Position numbers and translations under genes: made by a program
NCBI RefSeq assembly: GCF_001278805.1
Contig: NZ_CP012602.1
Span: forward strand, 5,088,501-5,152,500
DNA: 64,000 bases
Reading direction: 5' to 3'
Origin: Bacillus sp. FJAT-18017
Lineage (GTDB): Bacteria; Bacillota; Bacilli; Bacillales; Cytobacillaceae
Shown: positions 7,892-11,999 of the stretch, piece by piece
Numbering within the stretch: position 1 is the first letter of the stretch
Layout: each line of letters begins with the position of its first letter
The notes under the pieces: generated by a model
Seen by the model: only the letters and a program-made list of their open reading frames with translations
The model's database searches: none
What the model was told of the DNA's origin: nothing

Positions 7892-8935
7892 CTATTTCGT
7901 TTTAAAGGAGTATTTTGTATAAGAATAATACTCTTCTCCCTTTTCAAGTACTATAGAAGGAAAATCCGGATGATTGATGGCATCTGGATGCTTTTGTGTT
8001 TCAAGGCAGACAGCAAGATAAGGCTGCGGCTTCACTCCTCCATTTAGGGTAAAATCGCCCTCAAGCTGGTTGGAGGTATAAACTACAACTGCCGGTTGGT
8101 TTGTTTCCACCTCCAGTATACGCCCGCTTTCAGGACAAGTTAGCGAGATGCCTTTGGAGCCCGATAGCACAAATGGGTGGTCGTACCCTCGGCCAGCAAG
8201 TAGATTTTGCTCATGGTTCGACACTGTCCCGTCACCTATCTTCCTTCCCATCCTAAAATCAAAGGCTGTACCCTGGGAATCAAGAGTTTTGCCTGTCGGA
8301 ATCAAATCACTGCCAAGTTCAAGGAACCCATCAGAGTCAATTTGCAAAATGTGGTCCAGTATAGTTGATTTAAAATTGCCGCTCAAGTTGAAGTAACTAT
8401 GATTAGTCAAATTAATAAGAGTTTTCTTATCGGTCGTTGCATAATACTCACTAATCAATTCATTGTTTTCAGTAATTGTATAAGCTGTCCTGAATGAAAC
8501 CGTTCCAGGGTAGCCTTCCTCATTTTCCGGGCTTACATATGTAAATTCGATTTTTGCATTCTCACCCGCCCGGCTTGTTTTGGCCGTCCAGACAACCTTA
8601 TCGAGACCTTTTAACCCGCCATGCAGATGATTTTGGCCATCGTTTTGGGCAAGTTGATAGTCCTTGCCATCGAGTGAAAACCTTCCTTTGTTTATCCGTC
8701 CGGCAACCCTTCCGACAACCGATCCAAAATAAGGAGAGTGCTCGATATACTCCTCAATTGACGCAAAGCCAAGGACCACATTTTCAGGTGTTCCCTCTTT
8801 GCCTGGTACATTTAGTTCATTGATAATACAGCCATAATCGAGGCATGTCACACTCATGCCATTATTATTTGTTAGTTTATAAGCATGGACCTCTTGCCCG
8901 CCTGTTTCCCCAAAAAATTTTTTCGTGATTTCCAA
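7892..8935 (-). CDS. galM: Aldose 1-epimerase (mutarotase)
   Basis: The 347-residue protein fits aldose 1-epimerase, which interconverts the alpha and beta anomers of galactose and glucose in the cytosol. Family hallmarks are the substrate-binding NHLHGG near residue 100, the catalytic histidine stretch LTNHSYFNLSG near 180, the acid GYDHPFV near 250 and the catalytic glutamate near the C-terminus (LAVCLETQKHPDAINHPDFP). The start is TTG with GAGGAG 8 bases upstream. Other Leloir genes are not adjacent, so a general mutarotase role is likely. Confidence 0.9.
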   Translation of the reverse strand: MEITKKFFGETGGQEVHAYKLTNNNGMSVTCLDYGCIINELNVPGKEGTPENVVLGFASIEEYIEHSPYFGSVVGRVAGRINKGRFSLDGKDYQLAQNDGQNHLHGGLKGLDKVVWTAKTSRAGENAKIEFTYVSPENEEGYPGTVSFRTAYTITENNELISEYYATTDKKTLINLTNHSYFNLSGNFKSTILDHILQIDSDGFLELGSDLIPTGKTLDSQGTAFDFRMGRKIGDGTVSNHEQNLLAGRGYDHPFVLSGSKGISLTCPESGRILEVETNQPAVVVYTSNQLEGDFTLNGGVKPQPYLAVCLETQKHPDAINHPDFPSIVLEKGEEYYSYTKYSFKTK

Positions 8936-9132
8936 TTCTCCATCTCCTCACCGTATTATTATCACCATCCCTTTTTTAATCAGGATGGTATTATCCCTAG
9001 GCCTTTATACTATTTATAATAAACTAAAAACAAGCCTATTTCCTTTTATACACTTTGATGCTTCTTATTAAGTAAAAAGCATGCCTTTTTAAACTATTTA
9101 GTTCTCGTTAAATCACACAGTAAATAGCACAC

Positions 9133-9165
9133 AAAAAGCATGCCTATTAAACAGGCATGCTTTTT
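9133..9165. terminator. Bidirectional terminator
   Basis: AAAAAGCATGCCT (9133-9145) pairs perfectly with AGGCATGCTTTTT (9153-9165). A near copy of the left arm occurs at 9074-9086. The stem overlaps the last codons of the diguanylate cyclase/phosphodiesterase gene. Confidence 0.85.
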
Positions 9166-11357
9166 GGGAGCAATTCTTGAACAGAAGCAGCAGGTTTGGG
9201 TTGACTGAATAAAAACCCCTGGCCTACAGTACAGCCGCTGGCAACGAGGTAATCAACTTGTTCTTGTCTCTCAATGCCCTCAGCAATAACATGGAAGCCC
9301 ATATGGAGGCCCATATTAAGAATCGTTTTCACCATTGCTCCTCCATCTTCTTCGGTGGAAATGTCATCAATGAACGATTTGTCAATTTTCACTGTATCAA
9401 TTGGAAGATGCTTTAAGTTGCTTAACGATGAATACCCCGTACCAAAGTCATCAAGGGCCAGCTTTACACCAAGCTGATGTAGCTCATTCAAGATATAAAT
9501 TGAGCGGTCAATATTTCTCATAACACTTTCGGTTATTTCAAGTTCCAAGGAACTTGGGTCCATTTCTGTCTCTTCAAGGATTTTTTTAACAGATTCGAGG
9601 AAATTGTCATCCTGAAATTGCCTGACCGAAATATTAACCGAAATCGACATAGGCAAATACCCCTGTCTTCGCCATAGAGTGTGTTGTTCACAGGCCTTCC
9701 TTAATACCCAATTGCCGATCGGAACAATAAGGCCAGTTTCTTCGGCAAGCGGGATAAATTCAGATGGCGGAATCATCCCTCTTATCGGGTGCTTCCATCT
9801 AATCAGCGCTTCAAGCCCAATAATATTGCCGGTACTCAACTCTACCTGTGGCTGGAAAAACAAAGCCAGCTGCTCCTGCTCCAACGCTTTCCTAAGCCCT
9901 GTTTCTAATTCCATCTTCCGTGAGGACAAACCCTGAAGGCGTGAGGTATAGAATTGATAGTTATTCTTGCCTCGGTCTTTGGCCAGGTACATCGCTGTAT
10001 CGGCATTTTTTATCAACGTCTCCCCGTCCTTGCCGTCTATTGGATACATGCTGATTCCAATACTTGGGGTTACATAGAATTCTTCGCCGTTAATCTTGAA
10101 AGGCTCGGAAAATTCATTCAGGATTTTCCTGGCTATTTGAACGGTTTTTTCACGATCTATATTTCTTAGGAAAATAGTAAACTCATCTCCACCCTGGCGC
10201 GAAACAACCCCCGCCTCCGCAACGGTATGAGCAAGCCTTGATGCAACACCCTGCAAAAGCATATCTCCTACCGAATGGCCTTTTGTATCATTAATTATTT
10301 TGAACCTATCAAGGTCCAGAAATAAGACGGATATTGCCTGGCTTGGATTATGCTGCAGTGCTTCAATTAATTGAGTCCGGAATCTATAGCGATTCGGAAG
10401 GCCGGTAAGGCTATCAAAATACGCCATTTGTTGGATTGTCTCTTCCGTCTTCTTGCGTTCGGAAATATCCCTTCCAACTATTTGACGCGCAGCCCTGCCT
10501 TCAAAAAATATTGGCATTGATATCATTTCAATACTAATTTCTTCACCATTCAACCGTTCAGTCTTAAACTCAATACTGATTTTTGTATCGGGTTCATCAA
10601 TTGAAAGCGCTCTGTATCTTAACTCGTTTAATACAGATTCTGGTATTAACCTTGAAAGAGGCCTGCCGATCAGCTGCTTTGGGGAATTGTATCCAAACAC
10701 TATAGCACCTGTCTCATTAATATAATCAATATGGCTTCTGCTATATACCGCAATGATGTCAGGGGACATTTCGACGAGTGTCCTATAACGGTTTTCACTC
10801 TCCATTCGCTCTGTAATATCAAAAAGAACAGAACTGAAGTCGATAAGTTTGCCATCTTCATTAGTCGGGATTCCCCTGTCCTGTATCCAGCGGATTTCCC
10901 CATCAGAACGGATAATCCGATAAATACTAGTGATAGCTTTACCCTTTTCAAGAGCGGATTCCCTTTCCTTTAAAACAACAAGATCCTCAGGATGGATAAC
11001 TTTTTTCCATAATTCATGATCTTCATAAAAATCGCTCAAGGAATACCCGTATAGTTTTTCAATTCCCGGTGTAATCATCAAATGGTTTGACTTCATATCG
11101 TGTGACCATATAGCGACATCAAGTGTTTCAAAAATATTCTTAAGCCTTTGCCGGTTCTTTTTCAGCTCTGCTGTCGTCAGGTCAATACCATTTATGACCC
11201 CAAGAATCAACACACCGGCAATAGCCAGCAACAGAGCATGGACAATTTTTTCATTCACAGAAAAAAGTATGGAACTAGTTTCAGCAATCAACCCCACGAT
11301 AATTGCCGAAATTAATAATAGTTTCCTAGTGTCCCTGAAAATTGCTTTTAACCTCAT
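9147..11357 (-). CDS. PAS-PAS-GGDEF-EAL cyclic di-GMP protein
   Basis: This protein of about 736 residues has two N-terminal membrane segments (about residues 10-60), two PAS domains (about 75-185 and 190-305), a GGDEF domain with an intact GGDEF active site (RQGGDEF, about 387-393) and an EAL domain with intact [25 protein letters not shown] and AEGIE motifs. Both synthesis and breakdown of cyclic di-GMP look possible. No RxxD inhibitory site precedes GGDEF. PAS input suggests redox or ligand sensing at the membrane. The ATG at 11357 is chosen because GAGGGG lies about 5 bases upstream; the longer start at 11387 has no binding site. It is monocistronic. Confidence 0.9.
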
Positions 11358-11458: not shown

Positions 11459-11490
11459 AAAAAAATAACTGCATGCCTAAAGACATGCAG
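11459..11490 (-). terminator. Terminator of the candidate selenoprotein gene
   Basis: CTGCATG (11469-11475) pairs with CATGCAG (11484-11490). On the minus strand it is followed by TTATTTTTTTC. Confidence 0.75.
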
Positions 11491-11498
11491 CAGTTTGG

Positions 11499-11999
11499 TT
11501 ATTGGCCAGTTACTTTACTAGCGGCGTAAGGAATAATCTCAGCGATTTGATCACCAAAAGGGTCCAGCTGCTGAGATTCGAGAACATTTCCTTTCTTATC
11601 AAGGATAGCGAAACCCCTAAGAGATTTAGGGCCACTAGGGTCTTTTAATTCTGCCTTTTCGATCAATACAAGGTATTTGTCAGAAAGAAGGGTATAATCA
11701 AGCCCCAGGTCTTCCTTCATTTCCTTGTGATCCTCAGGTGAAGACGCACTCAAAGCATATACATCCCCAGGAAACTGATTAAATAATTCTTTGTTCTTCT
11801 GCAGCTCGACCAGCTGCGATTTACAATAGTCTCAGGTATTGCCTGTAAAAAAGAATACGAGCGTAGGCTTGTCCTTCTTTTCAAGTGATACCTCTTTGCC
11901 TTGGTCATCAAGTATAGCTTTGTTCCCTGAGCAGCCTGCCAGGGTAAAAACAACTGCCAATATTACGTAAAAACCCACATAAAGGCTGCGTTTCTTCAT
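11499..11999 (-). CDS. Candidate selenocysteine-containing thioredoxin-fold lipoprotein (in-frame UGA, UxxC motif)
   Basis: Read through one UGA, the frame encodes 166 residues. It has a lipoprotein signal (MKKR, hydrophobic core, lipobox LAGC with Cys23) and then PTLVFFFTGNT, UGA at codon 56 (11832-11834), and DYCKSQLVELQKN. The UGA replaces the first cysteine of a CxxC motif in an otherwise normal thioredoxin/peroxiredoxin-like fold, which continues with VYALSASSPEDHKEM and GFAILDKKGNVLES. A hairpin with a GGUCG loop follows the UGA at SECIS distance. Insertion of selenocysteine would give UxxC, a common bacterial selenoprotein motif. The alternative is a Cys-to-UGA nonsense mutation. No sel genes are in the window. 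The gene has its own terminator. Confidence 0.65.
11801..11817 (-). promoter_or_regulatory. Candidate bacterial SECIS hairpin
   Basis: On the minus strand GCAGCT pairs perfectly with AGCTGC around the loop GGTCG. The stem begins 14 nt after the UGA codon and the loop begins 20 nt after it. The E. coli fdhF SECIS also presents GGUC in a small apical loop about 18 nt after its UGA. Confidence 0.55.

Follow-up and report, generated by a model that had tools for sequence, protein, structure and literature searches.

The locus and its interrupted reading frame

We analysed a 64,000-nucleotide stretch of the genome of Bacillus sp. FJAT-18017 (hereafter the window), in which positions 11499..11999 of the minus strand hold a gene that probably encodes a selenocysteine (Sec)-containing redox lipoprotein. 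An earlier note, made from the letters of this stretch, had described one open frame with a single UGA at codon 56. This was borne out, and the strand could be added: the frame runs on the minus strand from 11999 down to 11499 and has 166 codons and a stop (167 including the terminal TAA), while the plus-strand frame of the same interval contains several stops. The translated frame starts with MKKRSLYVGFYVILAVVFTLAGC. Its sole in-frame TGA, codon 56 (11832..11834, minus strand), lies in the context GNT-UGA-DYC (T-UGA-D-Y-C). Ordinary gene calling had been expected to split the gene, and a mechanical list of open reading frames (ORFs) did so, giving one piece of 84 amino acids downstream of the TGA and one ORF of 67 amino acids, overlapping and out of frame. 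The assignment as a 166-residue, Sec-containing AhpC/TSA (redoxin) lipoprotein is based on the frame, Pfam matches, orthologues and synteny.

We recovered both parts that the note had placed on either side of the UGA, a lipobox-bearing signal peptide ahead of it and a thioredoxin/peroxiredoxin-like body behind it; the AhpC/TSA domain extends to both sides of the UGA. The putative lipoprotein signal peptide spans codons 1-22 (11934..11999, minus strand), with an n-region KKR, a hydrophobic core and LAG; the structural model has a helix over residues 6-20, at low confidence in that part. Signal peptide and lipobox, recognised by eye, read MKKRSLYVGFYVILAVVFTLAG-C. Cys23 of the lipobox LAGC (11931..11933, minus strand) is the expected lipidation site and was invariant in 30/30 aligned Sec-containing members of the clade described below. 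The window protein matched Pfam AhpC-TSA (PF00578) with 64.1 bits (cut-off 26) and Redoxin with 46.9 bits (cut-off 26.6), and PF00578 was matched by all 30 aligned members (30/30, E <= 0.001). Thr52, Sec56, Cys59, Ser84, Asp107 and Arg128 were invariant across these 30 diverse proteins. Cys59 (11823..11825, minus strand), the second residue of UxxC and presumed resolving cysteine, was kept in 92/92 distinct sequences. In an alignment with the solved chains of 6e0f and 4kb3, Arg128 (11616..11618, minus strand) fell on the Arg of their RG(L)F stretch, which we take to be the catalytic Arg of peroxiredoxins.

Conservation of the UGA across relatives

Within the genus, an orthologue with one TGA was present in 8/8 genomes, that of the window included. 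Across the family, 38 of 151 genomes matched at E <= 1e-20 and yielded 39 loci, all with a TGA. The TGA occupied one alignment column in 39/39 of these loci and is therefore conserved beyond chance. A profile built from 18 family loci was searched against 348 genomes of the order; it matched 85 genomes in 91 rows, 65 of them with a TGA. In this wider search 76 further loci were examined: 57 had Sec, always as UxxC, and 19 did not. Together with the 39 family loci and two second copies (L032 and L033), the 57 make up 98 Sec loci, every one of them UxxC. The frame was otherwise open in nearly all; the exceptions were L068, with an extra TAG, and L099, with a shifted N-terminus. L099 (G024:C1:1667027-1667323) is an order row in addition to those 65 and retains TUGLC and the hairpin; its TGA immediately precedes the part that matched, and the shifted N-terminal frame may reflect gene decay or a fault of the assembly.

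Twenty-five order rows truly lacked the TGA. The 19 that were fetched were Bacillales redoxins with the motif [S/A/E]WCPVC, and the stretches shown contain no lipobox; at about 50 bits they were the nearest fetched Cys relatives in the order. A tree separated the 98 Sec rows from these 19 Cys rows by a branch of support 100, with the warning that it was a quick tree of few columns, in which 45 of 114 inner branches were open and long branches met at the Sec/Cys join.

At the level of the phylum, we found no clade member outside the window's own family in 398 genomes; the order and phylum genomes were samples in which the best 10 and best 9 first-look candidates per genome, respectively, were scored, and absences are not exhaustive. 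The phylum search gave 34 rows, three of which were clade members, and the other 31 scored at most 58.6 bits. Twenty-seven of the 31 were read (four were not fetched); we take these to be general peroxiredoxins, PrxQ proteins, one SWCPVC protein, one Sec-PrxQ (L164) and one ResA-like lipoprotein with CPYC (L179). The last of these comes from another class of the phylum and scored 48.7 bits against the clade profile.

The earlier note had proposed an alignment of homologues. This gave a UGA at the same codon in other species, together with a conserved hairpin, but no orthologue with Cys at codon 56.

A candidate SECIS hairpin

A candidate selenocysteine insertion sequence (SECIS) hairpin, GCAGCU-GGUCG-AGCUGC, starts 14 nucleotides after the UGA (11801..11817, minus strand) and was recognised by its pairing and by synonymous codon conservation. 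Its apical loop is small and includes a G, a feature of bacterial SECIS elements according to the available text of PMC1088965. Across the 98 loci (92 distinct 60-nucleotide sequences), the inner five pairs formed in 92/92 and the outer pair in 84/92, the latter occurring as G-C, U-A and C-G. When the 3' side was slid by 1-6 positions, the share of paired cells, 98.6% in register, dropped to at most 67.0%. In the fourth pair, the third base of codon +6 (Gln) is matched with the first base of codon +10 (Leu); each can vary while the protein stays the same, and the two vary together. We observed the codon combinations CAG/CTG in 68 sequences, CAA/TTG in 20, CAG/TTG in 4 and CAA/CTG in none (P = 1.3e-16, Fisher test, relatedness disregarded), and this pair had changed at least 11 times on the tree.

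In the 39 family loci, the same-codon fractions of codons +4 to +10 were 0.85-1.00. Comparison codons gave 0.20 and 0.23 (two fully conserved Leu), 0.25 (a conserved Gly) and 0.18 (a nearly conserved Arg); a few other codons, such as Asp at +1 (1.00) and Asp at -25 (0.95), matched the hairpin codons in fixity. Across the wider set, only the pairing is kept and the letters vary.

The window genome also holds a second, diverged lipoprotein gene of this kind (G000:C1:4145682-4146143; L032, L153), with an in-frame TGA in TUTHC. Its hairpin is compensated and reads GCAACU-GGUUC-AGUUGC.

Selenocysteine machinery and co-occurrence with SelB

The earlier note had named selA, selB, selD and tRNA-Sec (selC) as the genes to search for, and the absence of selB or selC as telling against its reading. 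All four, SelA, SelB, SelD and tRNA-Sec, are present in the window genome (5,265,381 bases, one contig). SelA, SelB and SelD were each over the cut-off in 2/14 control genomes, and ARAGORN independently called tRNA-SeC(tca) at the top-scoring Rfam place. SelD of this genome itself contains an in-frame TGA, in the motif KAGUGCK; UxxK is a known place of Sec in SelD (PMC9312934, Table 1). At least one other gene in the genome therefore seems to need UGA as Sec. The selD gene (L002:10051-11118, plus strand) adjoins selA (8069-9565, minus strand) in the opposite orientation, and selB and tRNA-Sec lie elsewhere in the genome.

SelB was over the cut-off in 63/63 carriers of the Sec form in the order compared to 157/348 order genomes (P = 3.2e-26, hypergeometric), and in 9/22 order genomes that had only TGA-less relatives. 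The note's remark that selenoproteins are rare in Bacillaceae did not hold for the family sampled here. Sec decoding was common in the family, with SelB in 129/151 sampled genomes and in 38/38 carriers (P = 9.5e-4, hypergeometric; relatedness was ignored at both levels). Two of the 38 family carriers (G067 and G132) have stops inside the SelB match. Twenty-two of the 151 family genomes had no SelB over the cut-off; 13 of the 20 listed belong to one genus (g2).

Predicted fold and relation to described families

The predicted model has a peroxiredoxin-like fold (predicted local distance difference test score 87.3), and the nearest solved structures were AhpE, BCP and PrxQ. The T/S-x-x-C(P) motif of peroxiredoxins is absent; Sec56 stands in place of Thr/Ser, three residues before Cys59. 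U-D-Y-C would fill the same four places as the motif T-P-G-C of PrxQ (L158 and others), and Sec therefore lies where peroxiredoxins have Thr. The earlier note had put the UGA at the place of the first active-site Cys. The UxxC position stood, but the equivalence to a Cys is formal only, as no Cys form of the clade was seen.

Related selenoproteins have been described. The available part of a 2022 review counts 87 prokaryotic selenoprotein families, including a Prx-like thiol:disulfide oxidoreductase with PF00578 and UxxC/UxxU, for which WP_010940744.1 is the representative (PMC9312934). A PF00578 UxxC group was named Prx-like 1 in a study whose accessible text gives 225 Sec and 2,740 Cys homologues for the Global Ocean Sampling data (PMC2398784), and a 2006 survey, in the portion at hand, credited Bacillales with three selenoproteins in three families (PMC1794560). 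By domain and motif, the window protein fits the Prx-like thiol:disulfide oxidoreductase selenoproteins: both have an AhpC/TSA domain, Sec first in UxxC and a predicted redox function. As far as the available descriptions of that family go, the window protein is set apart by being a predicted lipoprotein and by belonging to a clade that was seen in Bacillales only in the samples searched and that showed no Cys form.

Sec-containing peroxiredoxins of the PrxQ/BCP type (TxxU) are likewise selenoproteins of the same fold class, and L164, with TPGU, is one from another class of the phylum. In contrast to the clade, motif alignment places their Sec three residues after that of the clade, and their T corresponds to Sec here. 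The thioredoxin-fold families NF053656 (redoxin_TUGYCR (seleno)protein) and NF040769 (SelL-related redox protein) of NCBIfam matched part of the window protein weakly, below their cut-offs (18.1 vs 100 bits and 18.2 vs 120 bits), and no NCBIfam model passed for it. We did not find the clade described in an open-access literature search, which left subscription papers mostly outside and is no proof of absence. This Sec-only lipoprotein clade, apparently membrane-anchored and widespread in Bacillales, looks new.

Representation in protein databases

We ran two protein searches over 5.8 billion proteins, using word-sharing candidates, which returned at least 18 and at least 43 proteins. Fourteen of the 18 proteins of the first search were read. 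In the second, scoring covered 7,996 candidates and 43 lay at E <= 1e-6; 31 of these were read, and the other 12 were 84-105 amino acids long. Among the proteins read, 15 were full-length with at least 50% identity, and all 15 (15/15) had W at the UGA place and lay on contigs no longer than 2,339 bases. Apart from four more distant full-length homologues and P0044, also distant, the remainder were fragments starting after the UGA. P0044 has W-G-I-W at the UxxC place and may be a UxxU selenoprotein that was translated under code 4. Eight rows of the second search named NCBI as their source (87-108 amino acids); the seven that were read all begin after the UGA, and downstream-only NCBI entries include P0026 (Mesobacillus subterraneus), P0033 (Neobacillus niacini) and P0034 (Bacillus sp. 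FJAT-27225). The databases searched hold the proteins of this clade either shortened or with Trp at the UGA.

Four distant full-length homologues, P0024, P0025, P0027 and P0029, have S, Y, Y and N, respectively, for Sec, and Ser for Cys59, with the rest kept. A search for such degenerate homologues with P0029 in the 151 family genomes found none; all 39 rows returned contain the TGA. The nearest Cys relatives found were distant, at about 50-58 bits.

Interpretation and alternative explanations

The complete machinery, the conserved UGA and the conserved hairpin support the selenoprotein reading of the earlier note. We propose that the gene encodes a genuine selenoprotein, an exported and lipidated redox lipoprotein of peroxiredoxin-like fold, and give this whole explanation a probability of about 0.88 on the sequence evidence. 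Its parts differ in strength. Insertion of Sec at codon 56 appears close to certain, and a redox enzyme of the proposed type is likely, whereas peroxide rather than disulfide as the substrate is an even call.

In the mechanism that we envisage, the mRNA would present the UGA followed by a small hairpin of the bacterial SECIS type, and SelB with selenocysteyl-tRNA(Sec) would read the UGA as Sec, as the complete machinery and the conserved hairpin suggest. The signal peptide and lipobox point to export, lipidation at Cys23 and anchoring on the outer face of the membrane. There the protein would adopt the predicted BCP/AhpE peroxiredoxin-like fold, with U-x-x-C in place of T-x-x-C. Sec56 would most likely attack an oxidised substrate (a peroxide or a disulfide), Cys59 would form a selenenylsulfide in the resolving step, and re-reduction would fall to a thioredoxin-like partner outside the cytoplasm.

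On balance, we favour the view that the membrane-anchored UxxC redoxins of Bacillales make up a large clade that is Sec-only. No Sec/Cys exchange was seen in it, and the only non-Sec relatives found at a similar level have lost both redox residues; the extracytoplasmic, selenium-dependent enzyme that it would provide may be one reason for keeping the Sec machinery. Such a clade would go unseen in searches for Sec/Cys pairs. A common way to find selenoprotein genes is to match a UGA with the Cys of a homologue; the survey of the Sargasso Sea, in its available text, required at least two Cys homologues (PMC1088965). A Sec-only family escapes such a search, and its genes are annotated as downstream fragments. 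If our reading is true, many Bacillales would have an additional exported redox enzyme that depends on selenium, and there would be a possible reason for SelB retention in those 38 of the 129 family genomes with SelB that have a close orthologue. It would also set UxxC against TxxU on one fold, a contrast that the Sec-PrxQ L164 (TPGU) shows directly and that would help in asking why Sec is preferred to Cys outside the cytoplasm.

Several observations weigh against the selenoprotein explanation. We found no Cys form of the clade in the 39 family loci, in the order and phylum rows read or in the database proteins read, and almost all known selenoproteins have Cys homologues according to section 5 of the 2022 review (PMC9312934). 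The hairpin is short, and its fold energy was modestly below that of shuffled sequences (z = -1.85; 8/200 shuffles were as good). An Rfam search of the gene region at E values up to 10 found no SECIS family and two snoRNA matches at chance level. When covariation was assessed with relatedness taken into account, about five informative pairs remained, at 5:0 in most draws (median P = 0.0625), with many unresolved forks. The same-codon fractions of codons +5 to +8 and +10 were 0.41-0.69 in the 92 sequences, not above those of several flanking codons. The hairpin after the SelD UGA of the window genome, compared for a shared SECIS consensus, differs in shape. The Rfam gathering score for tRNA-Sec was also passed in 5/14 control genomes and is therefore not specific alone, so that the tRNA call rests on ARAGORN as well. 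The substrate and the reductant are guesses.

The alternative that survives best accepts the selenoprotein but gives the Sec-Cys pair a role other than peroxide reduction, as a disulfide reductase or isomerase or in selenium or metal handling at the membrane. We consider this a serious possibility, at somewhat under even odds. UxxC is thioredoxin-like and unlike the TxxC/TxxU of peroxiredoxins, and the nearest family is named a Prx-like thiol:disulfide oxidoreductase in Table 1 of the review (PMC9312934). However, the predicted peroxiredoxin fold and the invariant Arg128 at the place of the peroxiredoxin Arg suit a peroxidase equally.

A true stop at the UGA, which would leave a 55-residue lipopeptide, a re-initiated downstream fragment or both, with the hairpin in a regulatory role, is very unlikely and was rejected. 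Databases do list the downstream fragment alone, as in the 84-residue P0041 (from a contig of 5,282,259 bases) and the 87-residue A8F94_17910. But the two halves form one AhpC/TSA domain and one confident predicted fold, residues on either side of the UGA are invariant (30/30), Cys59 and Sec together make UxxC, and all 63 order carriers have SelB.

Reading of the UGA as tryptophan, by a code 4-like assignment or near-cognate read-through, is more improbable still and was likewise rejected. The W in the 15 full-length database proteins would fit it, but the short contigs from which they come suggest gene callers set to code 4. No fetched locus has a Trp codon at the UGA place. The presence of tRNA-Sec, SelA, SelB and SelD and the occurrence of SelB in 63/63 order carriers compared to 157/348 order genomes also speak against decoding as Trp, which would leave the hairpin unexplained. 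Lastly, the competing explanation of the earlier note, a single-base nonsense mutation or sequencing error that turned a Cys codon into TGA and left a pseudogene, has next to no probability and was rejected: TGA is one base from TGC and TGT, but the same UGA is conserved across several genera, in 39/39 family loci and 98 loci overall, with the frame nearly always open, the hairpin kept and no Cys orthologue found.

Gene neighbourhood

A promoter scan at the gene gave no convincing site (three found, 2.2 expected), and a DNA search of plasmids gave no match. The gene order was common to the window and four relatives, Bacillus sp. EB01, Bacillus sp. FJAT-27225, Neobacillus notoginsengisoli and Bacillus sp. 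FJAT-27445, and comprised ATP-binding cassette (ABC) transporter genes, one gene that matched nothing in Pfam, the lipoprotein gene, a GGDEF-EAL gene and a galM-like gene; one of the four (L058) has extra DNA before the lipoprotein gene. The GGDEF-EAL name and the missing match come from Pfam, and the ABC transporter and galM-like names were given by resemblance. Since the neighbour order is conserved in the four relatives, their copies are positional orthologues. Directly past the gene lies an intrinsic-terminator-like hairpin with a T-run (11468..11491, minus strand).
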